In this document: positions 12,944 through 22,380 of the stretch, one piece after another | Layout: every line of letters begins with the position of its first letter | Numbering within the stretch: the first letter of the stretch is position 1 | Assembly (NCBI GenBank): GCA_021296135.1 | Contig: JAGWAZ010000039.1 | Span: forward strand, 1-33,570 | DNA: 33,570 nt | Source: Chlorobiota bacterium | GTDB lineage: Bacteria; Bacteroidota; Ignavibacteria; OLB7 | Direction: 5' to 3' | Position numbers and translations under genes: made by a program | Notes under the pieces: generated by a model | What the model was told of the DNA's origin: nothing | The model's database searches: none | What the model saw: the letters and a program-made list of their open reading frames with translations, nothing else

Positions 12944-15757
12944 ATGAATCGTCGATACGTTCTTTCGGTAACGCTGGCATGCAGTTTTCTGCTGATTGCC
13001 GGCCTCCTTCTTTCTACCCAGCACCGGCAAAGCCCGGTGATTATCTCTGATGCAGGACCGAAAATGTCTTCGGAACGCATTCGTTGGGAATGGGAACGAC
13101 TGCGTGATCCGGCAACAGGACGTATACCAGCCGATATTCGTCGCCGGGAGATCGCTTTTGCCATGACCCATCCAACAGGAGAGTTCAATGTTCCATTCTT
13201 GAAAGCAGTGGGAATTGCCGAATATGACTGGACGCATCGCGGACCCTGGAATGTTGGAGGACGAACGCGAGGTGTTGTCCTCGACATTGCCAATGAGGAG
13301 ATTCTTTTGGCAGGAGGTGTTAGTGGTGGTATGTGGAAATCGACCGATGGTGGCGTAAACTGGCGTATGGTGACACGCTCAGATCAACTCCCAAGCGTAA
13401 CGACAATTGCACAGGACAGACGCCCCGGAAAGACAAACGTCTGGTACTTTGGATCGGGAGAACTCTGGGGAAACAGTGCGAGTGGTGGCAGAGCTTTCTG
13501 GCACGGGGACGGTATCTTCAAATCGACCGACAACGGCGAGACCTGGTTTTCGCTTGAATCGACTTCCTCGGGCACACCACAGTTCTTTAATGTGTTTGAT
13601 AATGTCTGGCGCATCGAAACCGATCCATCCAATCTCGAAGAGGATGAGGTGTACGCTGCGATCTACAGTAGAATTATTCGCTCTATCGACGGAGGTGAAT
13701 CGTGGAGAGAAGTTATCCGGCCAAGCATTTTTCAGGATCCCAGCTACTTCACGGACGTTGCCGTTACCAGCGCTGGCGTCGTTTATGCAACGCTCAGCAG
13801 TGATGGGGGCAAACGGGGGATCTATCGGTCTGAAGATGGCGTCTCCTTCGAAAAGATCACACCGGAGGATATGCCGGATGATTACAACAGGATTGTGATC
13901 GGCATTGCTTCGTCGAACGAAAACATCGTCTACTTTCTTGGTGAGACTCCCGGTTCCGGCTTTTTGGGAAGAAACTTTCGCGGCGATTCTTCCTGGCAAT
14001 CGTTGTGGAGATATACCTACATCTCAGGTGATGGTTCCGGGGAAGGTGGTATTTGGGAGAACCGTTCGGAACATCTTCCCGGCTTCGGGACCGCAACAGC
14101 AAGAAATGGCGATCTATACTCGCAGAGAGGCTATGACCTACATGTTCGCGTAAAGCCTGATAACGCCGATGTCGTCTTTCTCGGTGGTACAAACCTTTAC
14201 CGGTCCACCGATGGTTTTGCAACAAACGAAAATACCTCCTGGATTGGAGGTTATGGCAACTGGAAGCCGGACAGCAACGTTATTGAGTATTATTCCTATC
14301 CCGAACATCATCCCGATCAGCATGATGTGATATTCTCTCCTTCCAATCCACGCATCATGTATACGGCCAGCGATGGAGGCGTCCACAAAACACTTAATTG
14401 CCTTGCGGATTCGATCTCCTGGATTTCTCTTAACAGCGGCTACCTGACTACCCAATTCTACACGGTTGCTGTCGACCGCGGAACGCCTGGAGATCAGACA
14501 ATCATGGGCGGAATGCAGGACAACGGAACGTGGAGAACGATATCTACTGACGGCACTACCCCCTGGGTTCGAACCGGGAGCGGCGATGGCGCTTATTGTG
14601 CAATTTCGAACGGCAGCGACTATCTCTATGTCAGCAAGCAGCTTGGGCGCATCTATCGCGTGGAACTCGATGAATTCGGAAATGAAACAGGCTCCACAAG
14701 AATAGATCCTGCTGATGTAAGTGGTTATCGGTTCATCAATCCTTTTGTGCTTGATCCAAACGATTCCCGGGTCATGTATTTGCCAATAGGACGGAGCCTT
14801 AGAAGAAACAAGAACGTGACTGCGATACCACTCGGCAACACAGCTCCAACGAGTCTCGGCTGGGATTCGCTTGTTGGTGGTTTTGTCGATGAGGGGGCAA
14901 TCACAACGATCGACGTCTCTGACGAAAACCCGTCACACCGACTTTGGTACGGAACAAATGGTGGTCGAATCTATCGAATGGATGATGCTCTCGGCGAAAA
15001 CCCTGTTGCCGTTGAAGTGACCGGAACCAACATGCCGCAAGAAGCTTTCCTCTCTTCAATCGCAGTCGATCCTGAGAACGGAGAACGTGCAATCGTCGCC
15101 TTCTCGAACTACAGCGTGATCAGCCTCTACGAAACAACAGATGCCGGAGAAACCTGGCAGAGCATAAGTGGCAACCTTGAAGAGAACCCGAATGGGACCG
15201 GGGCAGGGCCATCTGTCCGCTGGATTACAATCCTCCACCGAGGGAAGGGAACTGTATACCTTGCCGGAACAAGCACAGGACTCTATTCAACAACATTCCT
15301 GAACGGTGATGAGACGATGTGGGTGAAAGAAGGGGCAGAGACTATTGGAAACGTTGTTGTTGATATGATTGACGCTCGGCAATCTGACGGATTTGTTGCC
15401 GTGGGCACGCATGGAAATGGTGTCTACAGTACAACAATTGGTCCACTCAGTATAGAATCAGAGGAAACGTCAGTTGCTGGACTTCGCCTTGAGCAAAGCA
15501 GACCGAATCCGATGAGTGAGTCCGCAACGATTTCATTCACAATCCCGAACGGGAACCCTCTTCCGGTAACGCTACGGCTGTTCAACACAGAAGGACGACT
15601 CATAGCGACATTAGTGGAAGAAAGATTTGAACCGGGACGTCATTCAGTTCAGGTCAATCGCGAGGTTGTGCCTGGGGTTCGTTTGCAATCGGGAACATAT
15701 TTTTATCAATTGCAGGCCGGAGAGATGACTGAATCACACGCAATGCATGTGAGGTAG
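12944..15757 (+). CDS. secreted BNR/sortilin-like repeat protein with T9SS type-A sorting domain
   Basis: A 937-residue exported protein. The ATG at 12944 gives MNRRYVLSVTLACSF and a hydrophobic stretch, a standard signal peptide. The upstream in-frame codons to 12881 add nothing credible. The bulk is a beta-propeller of the BNR/Asp-box, sortilin-like kind: WKSTDGGVNW, FKSTDNGETW, RSIDGGESW, RSEDGVSF, YRSTDGFAT and ETTDAGETW each carry the S.D.G..W motif or a close variant. Such domains occur in extracellular glycan-active and adhesive proteins, but no catalytic residues can be assigned. The last roughly 85 residues are a type-A C-terminal sorting domain: LEQSRPNPMSESATISF, VTLRLFNTEGRLIATL, SGTYFYQL and a terminal basic MHVR. 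It should therefore leave the cell or be anchored at the surface through the type IX secretion system. It is transcribed alone and converges with arfB. Confidence 0.85.
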   Translation: MNRRYVLSVTLACSFLLIAGLLLSTQHRQSPVIISDAGPKMSSERIRWEWERLRDPATGRIPADIRRREIAFAMTHPTGEFNVPFLKAVGIAEYDWTHRGPWNVGGRTRGVVLDIANEEILLAGGVSGGMWKSTDGGVNWRMVTRSDQLPSVTTIAQDRRPGKTNVWYFGSGELWGNSASGGRAFWHGDGIFKSTDNGETWFSLESTSSGTPQFFNVFDNVWRIETDPSNLEEDEVYAAIYSRIIRSIDGGESWREVIRPSIFQDPSYFTDVAVTSAGVVYATLSSDGGKRGIYRSEDGVSFEKITPEDMPDDYNRIVIGIASSNENIVYFLGETPGSGFLGRNFRGDSSWQSLWRYTYISGDGSGEGGIWENRSEHLPGFGTATARNGDLYSQRGYDLHVRVKPDNADVVFLGGTNLYRSTDGFATNENTSWIGGYGNWKPDSNVIEYYSYPEHHPDQHDVIFSPSNPRIMYTASDGGVHKTLNCLADSISWISLNSGYLTTQFYTVAVDRGTPGDQTIMGGMQDNGTWRTISTDGTTPWVRTGSGDGAYCAISNGSDYLYVSKQLGRIYRVELDEFGNETGSTRIDPADVSGYRFINPFVLDPNDSRVMYLPIGRSLRRNKNVTAIPLGNTAPTSLGWDSLVGGFVDEGAITTIDVSDENPSHRLWYGTNGGRIYRMDDALGENPVAVEVTGTNMPQEAFLSSIAVDPENGERAIVAFSNYSVISLYETTDAGETWQSISGNLEENPNGTGAGPSVRWITILHRGKGTVYLAGTSTGLYSTTFLNGDETMWVKEGAETIGNVVVDMIDARQSDGFVAVGTHGNGVYSTTIGPLSIESEETSVAGLRLEQSRPNPMSESATISFTIPNGNPLPVTLRLFNTEGRLIATLVEERFEPGRHSVQVNREVVPGVRLQSGTYFYQLQAGEMTESHAMHVR

Positions 15758-16278: not shown

Positions 16279-16480
16279 CAGATGGCAAAACAACTCAAAA
16301 AAGCGTTGGAACAAAGATTTTTCTACAGAGTCTAACGAAAGAGAAATTTTTGCACAAAACCAGAGTTCGCATCGTCTTCAAACTGCAACCTTAAGGTTCT
16401 CAATGGCTCCCTGAGATGTGCTTCCTGGAAATACTTCTTTGAAGAAAGGTAATGACGGGTTACCCTGACTTCAAAGAAAC

Positions 16481-16508
16481 TGCCCGGATTCCAAAAGGAG
16501 TCCGGGCA
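16481..16508 (+). terminator. GC-rich hairpin followed by T-rich stretch
   Basis: TGCCCGGATTC at 16481-16491 pairs with GAGTCCGGGCA at 16498-16508 around a six-base loop, then TTGTTTTGCCC. It looks like an intrinsic terminator on the plus strand, but no plus-strand gene lies directly upstream, so it may end an unannotated transcript or be another intergenic repeat hairpin. Confidence 0.5.
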
Positions 16509-16604
16509 TTGTTTTGCCCATCCCCCTCTCAGCATTGTTGTGAATATCCCCCTCAGAGAGAATATGTCAAGGAGCAGAGTATGCTGATTTCATTTTGAAC
16601 TTTT

Positions 16605-16830
16605 ACCGTACTGTCATCGAGTGACCAGTAAAAATAGATTGTGAGAGGGACTGCACTCCCCATGCCAGTGCAGTCCCTTTTCGTTCTCTCTGAGTACAAC
16701 CACTGTAAACAGAGAGAACCGTATGACGTTTCGATGATCCAAATAAAAGTATAGAACGGGGCTGCGCCCCCATGCGTCCGCAACCCCGTTTAGCTCCCCC
16801 GTGCTGTAGAACCACGTCTCCTTAATCAAC
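16605..16830. repeat. two diverged tandem copies of a ~113-bp hairpin-bearing intergenic element
   Basis: Copy 1 (16605-16717) and copy 2 (16718-16830) both begin ACCGTA and have a CCA followed by a TAAAA-containing AT stretch. Each then carries a GC-rich hairpin with CCCCATGC in the loop region, a short T run, and ACAACCAC or AGAACCAC near the end. In copy 1 GGGACTGCACT (16647-16657) pairs with AGTGCAGTCCC (16667-16677). In copy 2 AACGGGG and TGCG (16755-16766) pair with CGCA and CCCCGTT (16779-16790). The arms differ in sequence but remain complementary, so the structure is what is conserved. No credible coding frame runs through them. They could be structured RNAs ending in terminators, or a REP-like element. 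Confidence 0.6.
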
Positions 16831-17114
16831 CACTCCAGAACAGGCTTGGGGTCGGTTATGGCTGGGTTACGCAGGCTGTCGCGTCTTCGTCCGATCCTGA
16901 TAATCCTGGAAGATGTTCATCTGTTTGTCCAGGATGCTGCGAATGAGTTTGCTCAATTGCAGAACGATCCCGCAACGTTAACTATTCAACGACTCTCGAC
17001 TATTTTGCTCTAGGAACCCTCCCCCTTATCGCCTCTCCGCTACGCTCCGAGACGATGCCCGGCAAGATGCCGGGGCTCCGAACCCTTCGACCCTCGACTC
17101 TTTGACCTTCGACC
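16831..17114. other. intergenic stretch with small ORF and low-complexity repeats
   Basis: Between the hairpin repeats and nth. It holds one small plus-strand frame, 16858-17013 (51 codons from ATG), with no relatives I recognise. Next is CCCGGCA-AGA-TGCCGGG (17058-17074), a perfect 7-base stem of a kind often seen in dispersed repeats. A degenerate run of TTCGACC / TCGACTC motifs up to about 17115 follows. I do not consider any of it a supported gene. Confidence 0.5.
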
Positions 17115-17882
17115 CTATATCCCTTCGGTTATCAAAAAATCCCCGCTCACTGCTTTCGGGCCCTGCTTTTTCGCCGCTGCATGTTCTTTCTTCGCTTCCC
17201 ACTCGCACAGATCGAACAGAGGACACTCAAAACAGTGAGGTAATCGGGCTTTGCAAATCTCTCGTCCAAAGTGGATCAGACTCACGTGAAGTTCACGCGC
17301 TCGCCCTTTCGGGATAAGGGGACGAAGATCACGAAACGTTTTGTCAGGGCTTGATGCGTTAACGATACCAAGTCGATTGAGGATACGATGCAGATGTGTG
17401 TCAACAGCACATAGATCGCGGTCGAGCGCAAACATCATCGCGCAGGATGCGCTCTTCAGCCCTACTCCCTTGATGCTCGTCAGGAATTCCAGCAACTCAT
17501 CGTCGGGAACATCCTCGATACCACGCAGCTTAAAATCTCCCCATTGTTCTTGAAAAGCTCTGAGCGTATTCTGAATCCCTCTCGCTTTCTGATCGGCCAG
17601 TCCGCCTATCCGTATCGTCTCGGCCAGTTCATCCAAGTCAGCATCTGCAGCGTCTTCCCACCGTGGCCAGGCAACTCGCAACGCTTGATAGGCCTTATGA
17701 CTGTTGACATCACTGGTATTTTGCGAAAGGATAATTGCCGTCAATGCGTCAACAAAAGGAACATCTCCACCACTCCGGTTCTTCTTTGGAAAATGATTCT
17801 TCAGTCGATTGCCAATCTGCCGAACAAGTTTTTTGCGCTCACTCTTTCCCTCCGTACTGCTCCGACTTTTTAACTGTGCCAT
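17115..17882 (-). CDS. nth: endonuclease III-like DNA glycosylase
   Basis: Base-excision-repair glycosylase/AP lyase of the HhH-GPD family, with 255 residues from the ATG at 17882. The helix-hairpin-helix SIKGVGLKSASCAMM carries the catalytic Lys143, and AVDTHLHRI carries the catalytic Asp161. The C-terminal 4Fe-4S loop C-x6-C-x2-C-x5-C is intact (Cys210, 217, 220, 226). DALTAIILSQNTSD (45-58) matches the conserved DNA-intercalating region. The frame is open to a TTG at 17906, but the ATG is preferable; an AGGA lies about 13 bases before it. The sequence is somewhat unlike E. coli Nth, with a basic N-terminal extension and a Lys/Ala-rich tail, so it may belong to a distinct endonuclease-III subfamily. 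It is monocistronic between two intergenic regions that carry copies of the same hairpin repeat. Confidence 0.9.
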   Translation of the reverse strand: MAQLKSRSSTEGKSERKKLVRQIGNRLKNHFPKKNRSGGDVPFVDALTAIILSQNTSDVNSHKAYQALRVAWPRWEDAADADLDELAETIRIGGLADQKARGIQNTLRAFQEQWGDFKLRGIEDVPDDELLEFLTSIKGVGLKSASCAMMFALDRDLCAVDTHLHRILNRLGIVNASSPDKTFRDLRPLIPKGRARELHVSLIHFGREICKARLPHCFECPLFDLCEWEAKKEHAAAKKQGPKAVSGDFLITEGI

Positions 17883-18013
17883 AGATGTTCTTGATTCCTG
17901 TAACAACCCTCTGGAATCTACAGGGGAATATCATTGCAACCAAACGGCACGGATAGCAGTAAGGCAAAGGCTATCATTACCTTTAGTCGTTTTCTTCTCT
18001 TGTAATCCTTTCC

Positions 18014-18066
18014 AAAATCAAAGGGGACGTCCCCATGCAAATATCCCTCTCTTTAACAACCACCAT
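18014..18066. repeat. third, partial copy of the intergenic hairpin element
   Basis: CCAAAATC, then the perfect palindrome GGGGACGTCCCC (18023-18034), running directly into ATGC, then ATCCC-TCTCTTT and AACAACCACC. Order and spacing match the elements at 16605-16830 (CCA, A-rich, GGGG...CCCCATGC, CCC, T run, AACCAC), but the distal arm no longer pairs over its full length. The rest of the 435-base gap 17883-18317 holds no gene I can support. Near its right end is a strong GGAGG (18244-18248) that precedes no ATG-initiated gene at normal distance. Confidence 0.5.
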
Positions 18067-19100: not shown

Positions 19101-19392
19101 GAGGACAGGGAGAAGAGATAAAGGCAGAAAGGAGAGTGCCGGGATGAGAATTGAAGTTACGCATCTGCCCGACTCAGCGATAACGGTCGAGTCTGTTCAG
19201 ACTTCTGTGTCATTAAACATAACAACGGTCTACTAAATTTCAATAGCTTCCTTGGTGCTGGCTCTTTATACACGCTTCAGATCGGCCATGAACGCCTTTT
19301 GATGCTTTGAGCCACCATGCAGTTTTTTCGTTTTTGAGTTGAAGGCGCTCTCAATTCTCCGCTAAAGGAAATTTTATCTCCTCTCGAGTGTT

Positions 19393-19426
19393 TATATTTC
19401 CAGTCGGTAACAACACTAGCAAGGAG
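19393..19426 (+). promoter_or_regulatory. possible promoter -7 box and clear Shine-Dalgarno for the first sugar dehydrogenase
   Basis: TATATTTC at 19393-19400 is one base off TAnnTTTG, with a T-rich TTTT 18 bases upstream. AAGGAG at 19421-19426 is six bases before the ATG at 19433. This strong ribosome site fixes the start there and rejects the in-frame start at 19388. Confidence 0.5.
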
Positions 19427-19432
19427 ATAGCT

Positions 19433-20722
19433 ATGCATATTCTGTCAACTTCCTTTGGACTCCTGACTATTATTACTCTGATTATTTCCTCCTGTGCCTC
19501 AAACGCCCAAACAATTTCACTTGAGGTTGTTGAGGCATTTCCCAATCTCTCCTTCGGACAACCGACTGACATACAGAATGCCGGAGATGGATCGAATCGT
19601 CTCTTTGTTTGCGATAAGAGAGGGCGTATCCACGTCTTTGATAATGATCCCGAGGCGACTGAATCTTCAGTCTTTCTTGACATCAGGGACAGGGTGGTTA
19701 CAACATCTGAAATGGGATTGCTCGGACTTGCCTTCCATCCCAACTATGAAGAGAATGGCTATTTCTACATGAATTACAACGTGCGTCGTGGGAATTCCCT
19801 CTTCACTATCATTTCTCGCATGAGTGTCGACGACGAAGACCCTGACCGGGCTAACCCTTCTTCCGAGCTTATACTCATGGAGTTCATCCAACCTTTCGTT
19901 AACCATGATGGAGGACAGATTGCGTTTGGACCGGATGATGGCTATCTCTACATAGCAACCGGCGATGGTGGTTCAGGGGGTGATCCGCTTAATGCCGGTC
20001 AGGACTTACGTTCACTTCTAGGAAAAATTCTCCGGATCGATGTCGATGATCCTGACGATGGAATGAACTATGGTATCCCGGAAACAAATCCCTTTGCGGG
20101 GAACTCCCACTACGCCCAGGAAATATGGGCCTGGGGATTGCGTAATCCCTGGCGTTTCAGCTTCGATCCCCCGACCGGAAGACTCTGGGCAGCCGATGTT
20201 GGGCAAGATTTGTATGAGGAAGTGAGCATCATCGAGAAAGGTGGGAACTATGGATGGCGCATTACTGAGGGTTGGCATTGTTTCAATCCATCGAACAATT
20301 GCGACTCAATTGGATTGATCGGCCCTGTCTGGGAGTACGGACGGAGCGAGGGTGCCTCGATTACCGGAGGCTTCGTTTATCGTGGCTCGAATACTCCTGA
20401 ATTAGAAGGGATGTACGTTTACAGCGATTTTGTGTCGGGGCGAGTCTGGGCGCTCGATTATAAGAGTGGCGATGACGTCACCAACATCCTCATAGAGAAT
20501 ACAGATCTTGCGATATCGACGTTGGGAATTGATGAGGATAATGAACTGTATCTGGGAGAATTCAATGATGGTAGGCTCTATAAGCTTGCAGACCCACCAG
20601 GCTCTGTTGATGACCACGAGAAGGCAGGAGCAACACTCCATTCCGCAATACCGAACCCTGCAACCGACCGAATCACTATCCCTTACGAGATGAACGCCCG
20701 CACCGATTGGGGGAAGAGATAG
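19433..20722 (+). CDS. PQQ-dependent sugar dehydrogenase (GSDH family), copy A, sorting domain frameshifted
   Basis: Exported six-bladed beta-propeller of the glucose/sorbosone dehydrogenase family, which oxidises aldose sugars with PQQ and calcium outside the cytoplasm. The start is fixed by AAGGAG six bases before the ATG. Residues 1-24 are a signal peptide ending SNAQ; the ISSC within it also fits a lipobox, though copy B lacks that Cys. Family motifs: FPNLSFGQPTDIQ, LLGLAFHPNY, the catalytic-His segment NHDGGQIAFGP, LYIATGDGGSGGDP, GKILRIDVDDP, AWGLRNPWRFSFD, DVGQDLYEEV and GGNYGWRITEG. After the propeller a T9SS type-A domain begins (LHSAIPNPATDRITIPYEM) but the frame ends at 20722. Its second half continues in the -1 frame at 20707-20862. 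The enzyme domain looks complete; type IX export should fail. A paralogue follows. Confidence 0.85.
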   Translation: MHILSTSFGLLTIITLIISSCASNAQTISLEVVEAFPNLSFGQPTDIQNAGDGSNRLFVCDKRGRIHVFDNDPEATESSVFLDIRDRVVTTSEMGLLGLAFHPNYEENGYFYMNYNVRRGNSLFTIISRMSVDDEDPDRANPSSELILMEFIQPFVNHDGGQIAFGPDDGYLYIATGDGGSGGDPLNAGQDLRSLLGKILRIDVDDPDDGMNYGIPETNPFAGNSHYAQEIWAWGLRNPWRFSFDPPTGRLWAADVGQDLYEEVSIIEKGGNYGWRITEGWHCFNPSNNCDSIGLIGPVWEYGRSEGASITGGFVYRGSNTPELEGMYVYSDFVSGRVWALDYKSGDDVTNILIENTDLAISTLGIDEDNELYLGEFNDGRLYKLADPPGSVDDHEKAGATLHSAIPNPATDRITIPYEMNARTDWGKR

Positions 20723-20998: not shown

Positions 20999-21102
20999 GA
21001 CACTTTATCTGCTATTAAGCCTCCCATCCTCTCCGAGTGAGATCTTATTTCCCCTGAATTGTGTATCTTCTGACAGACTACATCACTGTTTTATACACCA
21101 TT

Positions 21103-22380
21103 ATGAACATTCTAACTGCTGCATTTCTCCTTTCAACCTTTGCCGGCCTCATTAGCATGTCTGCCGTTTCCAATGCTCAAGTACCTTCACTTAAGGTTAT
21201 CGAGGCCTTCCCGAACCTCACTTTTGACAAACCAACGGATATTCAGAATGCCGGTGATGCATCGCATCGTCTTTTTGTCGCTGAAAAGCCGGGTCGGATT
21301 CATGTTTTCGATACAGATGCTGAAATCCCTGAATCTTCAGTATTTCTTGATATCAGCCACCAGGTTGCTTCTGGTTGGGAGGAAGGACTTCTTGGTTTTA
21401 CGTTCCATCCAAAATATACAGAGAACGGCTATTTCTATGTGAACTACATAACACAACGGGGGACCAAATACTATACACGTATATCACGTTTTACCGTCAG
21501 TGCAGAGAATCGCGACAAAGCCGATCCGGAAACTGAAGTTCTTCTGCTTGAAATTGAACAACCGACCACTATTCACAATGGTGGACAGCTTGCTTTTGGA
21601 CCTGATGGATATCTCTATATTTCTCAGGGAGATGGAGGACCTAGTCGCGATCCGTTAAACAACGGGCAGAACTTGCGTTCTCTACATGGCAAAATTCTAC
21701 GCATTGATGTTGACAATCTGGATAACGGAATGAACTATGGTATTCCCGAAACAAATCCGTTTGCCGGGAACACCCATTACCAAAATGAAATCTATGCGTG
21801 GGGTTTACGTAATCCCTGGCGTTTCAGCATTGATTGGCCGACCGGGCGTATCTGGGCAGGAGATGTTGGGCAAGATCTCTATGAGGAAGTAAACATCATC
21901 GAGAAAGGTGGAAACTATGGATGGCGCATTACTGAGGGTCGGCATTGTTTCAATCCATCGAACAATTGCGACTCAATTGGATTGATCGGCCCTGTCTGGG
22001 AGTATCGACATATGGATAGTAATGCCTCAATTACCGGAGGCCACGTCTATAGAGGGTCGGACATACCGGAACTGAAGGGAATGTATGTTTATGGCGACTT
22101 CGGTTCCGGCCGTGTCTGGGCACTCGATTATCAAGGAGAGAACAACATCACAAATACTCTCATAGAAGACACTCCCCTTAACATTGTAGCATTCGGGACC
22201 GATGAAGCGAATGAACTCTATATTGTAGGACTCTATGGCAGGCTCTATAAGCTTGCAGACCCACCAGGCTCTGTTGATGACCACGAGAAGGCAGAAGCAA
22301 CACTCCATTCCGCAATACCGAACCCTGCAACCGACCGAATCACTATCCCTTACGAGATGAACGCCCGCACCGATAGATAG
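21103..22380 (+). CDS. PQQ-dependent sugar dehydrogenase (GSDH family), copy B, sorting domain frameshifted
   Basis: Paralogue of the preceding gene with the same architecture, 425 residues from the ATG at 21103. An in-frame GTG at 21061 would put polar residues before the signal peptide. The signal peptide is MNILTAAFLLSTFAGL... ending SNAQ. Motifs: LLGFTFHPKY, IHNGGQLAFGP with the catalytic His, LYISQGDGGPSRDP, GKILRIDVDN, AWGLRNPWRFSID, DVGQDLYEEV and GGNYGWRITEG. Most of the gene differs clearly from copy A at DNA level. Two patches are almost identical, though: 21894-22004, and 22241 to about 22460. The second patch contains the sorting domain, and copy B ends at a TAG in the same place and frame as copy A, lacking nine further bases. 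The out-of-frame remainder is 22377-22520. The substrate is unknown. Confidence 0.85.
   Translation: MNILTAAFLLSTFAGLISMSAVSNAQVPSLKVIEAFPNLTFDKPTDIQNAGDASHRLFVAEKPGRIHVFDTDAEIPESSVFLDISHQVASGWEEGLLGFTFHPKYTENGYFYVNYITQRGTKYYTRISRFTVSAENRDKADPETEVLLLEIEQPTTIHNGGQLAFGPDGYLYISQGDGGPSRDPLNNGQNLRSLHGKILRIDVDNLDNGMNYGIPETNPFAGNTHYQNEIYAWGLRNPWRFSIDWPTGRIWAGDVGQDLYEEVNIIEKGGNYGWRITEGRHCFNPSNNCDSIGLIGPVWEYRHMDSNASITGGHVYRGSDIPELKGMYVYGDFGSGRVWALDYQGENNITNTLIEDTPLNIVAFGTDEANELYIVGLYGRLYKLADPPGSVDDHEKAEATLHSAIPNPATDRITIPYEMNARTDR

Follow-up and report, generated by a model that had tools for sequence, protein, structure and literature searches.

Tandem terminator-like hairpins between nth and arfB in a Chlorobiota genome, and an uncatalogued RNA linked to nth in its relatives

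The stretch of DNA analysed here (the window) covers 33,570 nucleotides of a Chlorobiota bacterium (contig JAGWAZ010000039.1 of assembly GCA_021296135.1) and carries two similar hairpins, one directly behind the other, in the spacer between nth and an arfB-like gene. What are these hairpins, and do they belong to an element that has spread? An initial annotation, made from the sequence alone, described an intergenic element of about 113 bp, dispersed and present on both sides of nth, whose stem changes in sequence while it keeps its pairing, and suggested a structured RNA or a mobile REP-like hairpin. We examined the similarity, folding and copy number of the units, and compared them with the terminators and repeats of the genome and with an RNA found near nth in related genomes.

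Two similar units in the nth-arfB spacer

The two units repeat with a period of exactly 113 bp in the nth-arfB spacer and have in common ACCGTA, then a stretch rich in A, a hairpin whose loop contains CCCCATGC, and AACCAC (Table 1). Without gaps, 37 of 113 positions are identical between copies 1 and 2; with gaps, 56 of 101 columns. Their local alignment score of 188 exceeds that of every one of the 6612 other tiles, the highest of which is 133. In a separate local alignment none of 1000 shuffles reached the score of the pair. The two tandem copies of the initial annotation are borne out. Left flanks and hairpins both contribute to the similarity: the left flanks of the two units are matched as well by 2 and 3 of 6636 tiles and the hairpins by 1 and 0 of 6636, and the right flanks alone are unremarkable (163 of 6640 and 78 of 6644 tiles as good). 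A plain repeat finder did not list the units in the window. An open reading frame check of the spacer returned short frames and overlaps and nothing more. Searched against Rfam 15 at gathering scores, the window yielded a tRNA alone; at E<=10 the spacer drew five eukaryotic families, each far under its threshold.

Table 1 Positions of the features discussed (window coordinates, except for the class RNA examples).
Feature	Position	Strand	Evidence
arfB-like release-factor (RF-1) domain protein, PF00472	15844-16278	-	Pfam match
Hairpin resembling an intrinsic terminator; same spacer, different sequence	16481-16508	+	terminator scan
Copy 1 of the tandem unit (ACCGTA ... hairpin, CCCCATGC loop ... 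AACCAC)	16605-16717		alignments and tile comparison
Copy 1 main hairpin, 15 pairs (arms 16643-16657 / 16667-16681, loop 16658-16666)	16643-16681		folding
Second hairpin, spanning the junction of the copies; loop ACCAC on + / GTGGT on -	16683-16719		inverted-repeat search and folding
Copy 2 of the tandem unit	16718-16830		alignments and tile comparison
Copy 2 main hairpin; - strand AACGGGG...CCCCGTT CTATACTTTTAT	16754-16791		folding and hairpin survey
nth, HhH-GPD base-excision repair protein, PF00730	17115-17906	-	Pfam match
Claimed third copy, upstream of nth; CCCCATGC and AACCAC present, stem not preserved	18014-18066		
Class RNA examples	L291:1551-1637; L314:1552-1633; L316:1546-1625		

Elsewhere in the window, the proteins encoded at 19388-20722 and 21061-22380 have nearly identical C-terminal ends; we take them to be tandem paralogues that look like secreted PQQ-type sugar dehydrogenases. 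The best named matches of the window's MaeB protein, at 59-60%, are in Ignavibacteria, Kapaibacterium and Kryptonia, and equally in an Acidobacteriota MAG; together with the promoters of the class (below), they point to a bacterium of the Bacteroidota group and to no narrower placement.

The main hairpin of copy 1 ends T-rich on the + strand and shows GGCATGGGG as its loop on the - strand. That of copy 2 has 12 pairs and one mismatch on the + strand and 12 unbroken pairs on the - strand. Folding gave z-scores of -6.5 for the unit of copy 1 and -5.1 for its hairpin alone; the whole unit of copy 2 is little above shuffles (-1.64), and its hairpin alone reaches -3.3.

The stem arms of the two full copies differ and still pair, as had first been noticed. 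Three of the 13 pairs shared by the copies are changed on both sides, one is changed on one side and one is broken (C-A) in copy 2, and on the + strand 25 of the 26 pair cells across the two copies show standard pairing. When the partner is shifted by 1-3 columns no double changes are seen, against three in the true register; a shuffle control on the double changes, which has little power with two sequences, reached the observed value in 66 of 500 cases. On the - strand, copy 2 gains a G-U wobble in place of its C-A, but A-C mismatches arise at pair 39-77 in both copies and at pair 41-75 in copy 1. As mismatches occur on either strand reading, the pairing does not tell the strand.

A partial third copy had also been proposed, at 18014-18066. 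In folding, this piece does not stand out from shuffles (z -0.24 on the + strand, 0.29 on the - strand), and the stem score around its octamer, 3.4, lies within the background of the other CCCCATGC sites, of which the best after copies 1 and 2 has 4.8. Its local similarity is matched by 1 of 6632 tiles against copy 1 and 73 of 6632 against copy 2, with 24 and 85 of 1000 shuffles aligning as well, respectively; such a local match is about the best expected by chance in 33 kb. Global alignment is favourable with copy 1 (0 of 500 shuffles as good; 13 of 500 with copy 2). With its hairpin lost and its local similarity at chance level, we do not count this piece as an established copy. Both established copies are downstream of nth.

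A DNA search of the genome (2.86 Mb in 132 contigs) found the window itself as the sole match at E below 0.5. A covariance model, the check that the initial annotation had proposed, was built from the two tandem copies (R1) and detected these two adjacent copies and no others in the genome, and none in four family genomes; its searches begin with a fast prefilter, with stricter filters above 40 genomes, so that weak copies could be lost. These searches do not support the dispersal that had been claimed. Among 390 other genomes of the class, R1 gave three weak matches under the stricter filters (G016, G102 and G328; E 0.02-0.3 per genome), which we took as chance. The best of them (L118) was aligned as a GC-rich hairpin ending CCCCGTTTTTTT, with the appearance of an ordinary terminator. 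Searched at the DNA level, 60 relatives returned short matches and nothing longer (best 28 bases, E 0.003), and a search of a plasmid collection with the spacer returned none.

Repeats, small RNA genes and terminators as explanations

We consider it highly improbable that the hairpins are a REP/MITE-like palindrome that a RAYT transposase has mobilised. According to a passage of PMC2817692, REP/RAYT elements have many dispersed copies, usually more than 100 per genome, whereas the tandem hairpins number two, side by side, with none found elsewhere. They do resemble REP/BIME elements with a RAYT (Y1) in being intergenic hairpins in a genome with Y1_Tnp matches. Four such matches (L121-L124) score over the cut-off, one of them with an internal stop; they may be RAYT or IS200-type enzymes. 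The REP-type transposase that the initial annotation proposed to look for has candidates in the genome, none of them on the window's contig. Of the two options originally put forward, a structured element is a fair description of the tandem pair, and a mobile element is not supported, there being two adjacent copies.

The genome also has a REP-like family that shares the octamer. CCCCATGC is enriched, with 87 sites compared to 24 of the reversed pattern. At least 39 of these sites are close to an arm (CTACCCCATGCTTCCGCATGGGGCTATC...GAGCGTCGCTACGCGACT) that belongs to an unrelated, REP-like repeat, and 16 of the 87 have their own inverse across a short loop, each palindrome being counted on both strands. 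This family could speak for a mobile origin, but it is built differently, with its GTCGC/GCGAC arm close by. When all 87 sites were checked, a strong surrounding stem was found in copies 1 and 2 and in no others. The palindromic repeats of this family have the form CCCCATGC-TTCC-GCATGGGG with a GTCGC-TAC-GCGAC arm and occur on contigs of the window's genome (G000), for example at L018:1501-1508, L037, L074 and L109.

The units could instead be two small-RNA genes whose shared, exposed loop pairs with target RNAs. The loop is indeed kept in both copies, unit 1 folds well (z -6.5) and the similarity extends past the hairpin. However, unit 2 as a whole folds barely better than shuffles (z -1.64, though -3.3 for its hairpin alone), and copies in relatives were not found. 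A scan for the sigma-70 consensus only found no promoter site inside 16600-16830; the nearest site, 16570-16543 on the - strand, faces away from the units. We therefore regard this explanation as very unlikely.

On balance, we think it slightly more likely than not that the tandem hairpins are an ordinary terminator-type module of the genome, doubled in the nth-arfB spacer; plain terminators, which the initial annotation had named as the outcome that would speak against its proposal, are in our judgement the likeliest one. In copy 1 on the + strand and in copy 2 on the - strand, a GC-rich stem runs directly into a T-rich tail, the mark of an intrinsic terminator; the loops measure 9 and 12 bases, and on these strands 4 of the 8 bases past each stem are T. 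Copy 1 on the + strand ends TTTTCGTT. Copy 2 on the - strand reads AAACGGGG...CCCCGTT CTATACTTTTAT, a form common to some other T-tailed hairpins of the genome: 263 kb of the same genome (overlaps included) contain 80 T-tailed strong hairpins, and among the 60 of these 80 that were listed at least three (L025, L014 and L123) have copy 2's AACGG...CCGTT base. A stricter terminator scan (at least 5 T in 8, loop of at most 8) left the full stems of both copies, whose loops exceed the limit of 8, unflagged, and marked shorter, alternative hairpins within copy 2 as terminator-like on the - strand. The spacer holds other terminator-like hairpins too. Its part before arfB (16300-16570) contains an inverted repeat (16435-16449/16464-16478) and the strong terminator-like hairpin listed in Table 1.

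Given the similarity of the units, the paired stems, the tails and the absence of a further copy in the searches made, we infer that the pair probably arose by tandem duplication of a terminator-type hairpin module, about 100 bp long, in the nth-arfB spacer, and that the duplicates may since have drifted while their stems were kept paired. The probable function of the hairpins at the RNA level is to terminate transcripts or to shield their 3' ends. The T-rich tail of copy 2 is on the - strand, as are nth and arfB, so that this copy would block transcription running on from nth; in copy 1 the T-rich end is on the + strand.

The comparison with intrinsic (rho-independent) terminators, in tandem or bidirectional, rests on GC-rich hairpins, T-rich tails and intergenic place; the tandem hairpins differ from them in the 113-bp spacing of the units, the similarity outside the stem and the loop octamer kept in both. 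Three observations stand against the terminator explanation and are left unexplained by it. The hairpin of copy 2 lies 324 bases past the nth stop, a long distance for a terminator; the copies are direct repeats and yet have their T tails on opposite strands; and the similarity extends past the hairpins, which a terminator alone does not need. The hairpin of copy 1 is 365 bases from the arfB-like gene.

An uncatalogued RNA in the family and the class

In each of four genomes of the family (G001-G004), a conserved RNA is located upstream of nth. The stem of its 5' hairpin varies yet pairs, and the loop reads GCATGGGGAC, GTATGGGGAC or GTATGGAGAC; in G001, bshC (PF10079) comes after nth. Genome contigs were also searched for named relatives of nth, and none were found. 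A covariance model built from the four RNAs (R2) was searched in 391 genomes of the class, the window's own included, and matched in 48 genomes at E<=0.01 and in 52 below 0.1. A second match was present in four genomes (G003, G205, G275 and G374), always weak (E 0.17-0.52), and that of G374 overlies the first on the opposite strand. The set analysed as class RNA consists of 50 loci (L290-L339), each from a different genome and each with an E value under 0.02.

The core of the class RNA, about 80 nt long, has two hairpins, the second being terminator-like: a CCTTTC-GTTGTGGTGGT-GAAAGG hairpin is followed by GGGGAGTGCCCC...GAGTGGTGAC...GGGGCATCTCAC and a T run. In an alignment of 30 loci (27 distinct), 9 of the 12 pairs of the terminal, main hairpin show double-sided changes. 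The whole structure has 34 doubly changed cells compared to 7.3 in shuffles, none of 500 being as high; the pair types are not above shuffles (19 vs 19.1), and two smaller helices, 93.3 and 87.4% paired, show no double change. A model from the 30 aligned loci with the window's genome left out (R3) recovered 20 of 20 left-out loci at 40.9-71.4 bits, which is a test of the model and not an independent discovery, since these loci had been found via R2.

A Bacteroidota-type promoter, for which we assumed the motif TTG, 16-23 bases, TAnnTTT[GC], occurs 60-260 bases before the RNA end in 25 of the 50 loci, against 1 of 50 in reversed sequence. Seven downstream proteins were put to Pfam and proved to be four amidohydrolases, one S9 peptidase, one Obg and one cytochrome c assembly protein; nth matches were found in 4 of the 50 loci. 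As the neighbouring genes vary, we think it most likely that the class RNA is either an independent small RNA gene or a leader common to different genes. A leader-peptide reading was dropped by eye, the frame being broken in some members.

The RNA, in itself a solid finding, is uncatalogued in the 19 loci tested: no Rfam 15 family overlapped it at E<=5 in four family loci or at E<=1 in 15 class loci. Plasmid and phage collections gave matches of 24 and 28 bases and nothing longer (E 0.6-0.7). In a viral collection, a loose hairpin pattern drew 55 stretches; of 55 viral stretches with the class-RNA core, R2 found the short seed alone in 17, and nothing in the rest. A narrow literature search for such an RNA, with all terms jointly required, found no paper. 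In one family genome, two near-threshold matches to the Acido-Lenti-1 RNA (L066:1260-1304 and 1079-1123; 35.4 and 31.8 bits, cut-off 37) sit between the nth-linked RNA and nth.

Could the tandem hairpins be this genome's diverged version of the nth-linked RNA of G001-G004? They would then be read on the - strand, in the order hairpin loop GYAUGGRGA, hairpin loop GUGGU and terminator hairpin, a proposal, layout included, that we consider unlikely. The likeness consists of the place beside nth, a hairpin loop GCATGGGG(A) and a GTGGT motif on the same strand. On the - strand, the loops of copies 1 and 2 contain or adjoin GCATGGGGA and GCATGGGGG, and the family RNAs have an additional 5' hairpin with the loop GYATGGRGA. 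Scored against this 9-position consensus, three of the 234 hairpins of the window reach at least 8, namely copy 1 (9/9) and copy 2 (8/9), both on the - strand, and 15408-15420 (+); among 1719 hairpins of class loci two reach 8 and none 9. For the relatives' own hairpin, the scan is successful in 3 of 4 cases. The consensus was, however, picked after the likeness had been noticed. The genome has 122 GYATGGRGA sites, and in the 92 distinct ones checked, from 100 listed, there are besides copy 1 one strong, terminator-like hairpin (L346) and a weaker one (L404). L346, with the loop ATGGAGA and a T-rich tail, is 27 bases past a stop codon.

The best window match of R3 is 16717-16637 on the - strand (16.3 bits, E 0.011; next 10.3), and the second-best of R2 is 16787-16675 on the - strand (9.0 bits, E 0.61). 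In a control with 94.7 kb of other sequence from the same genome (overlaps included), however, R3 reached 17.6 bits on a terminator-like hairpin, and R2 reached 12.9 bits against the 9.0 at copies 2/1. The window scores are therefore within the background, since an ordinary terminator-like hairpin of the genome scores at least as high as the tandem hairpins. The R3 match at copy 1 had looked decisive before this control, which lowered our estimate of a relationship with the class RNA. A sequence profile of the relatives' RNA misses the tandem region, and in pairwise comparison with the relatives' hairpins over 11176 tiles, copy 1 ranks 152nd and copy 2 277th by maximum, and 58th and 46th by sum. 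Copies 1 and 2 are also downstream of nth, where the relatives' RNA is upstream. The piece at 18014-18066 does lie upstream of nth, as the family RNA does, and shows no statistical link to it (rank 893 of 11176 tiles by maximum, 1004th by sum). The class-RNA core TGTGGTGGTGAAA has no exact match in the genome; it has five one-mismatch places, against four for the reversed pattern, and none in the window. No clear copy of the class RNA was found in the window's genome.

It is doubtful that the hairpins, perhaps with the degenerate upstream piece, are a fast-evolving, locally duplicated offshoot, on the - strand, of the uncatalogued small RNA that goes with nth in this family and with other genes across the class, in which the AUGGRGA loop would be the lasting contact point. 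As terminators, the tandem hairpins would be a neat example of a terminator-like hairpin that was doubled and drifted in a compensatory way, and of modest interest. The lead to the class RNA outweighs them in importance: this RNA combines strong covariation, one strong copy per genome examined and a terminator-like end, it is present in many families of the class, and its role is directly testable.
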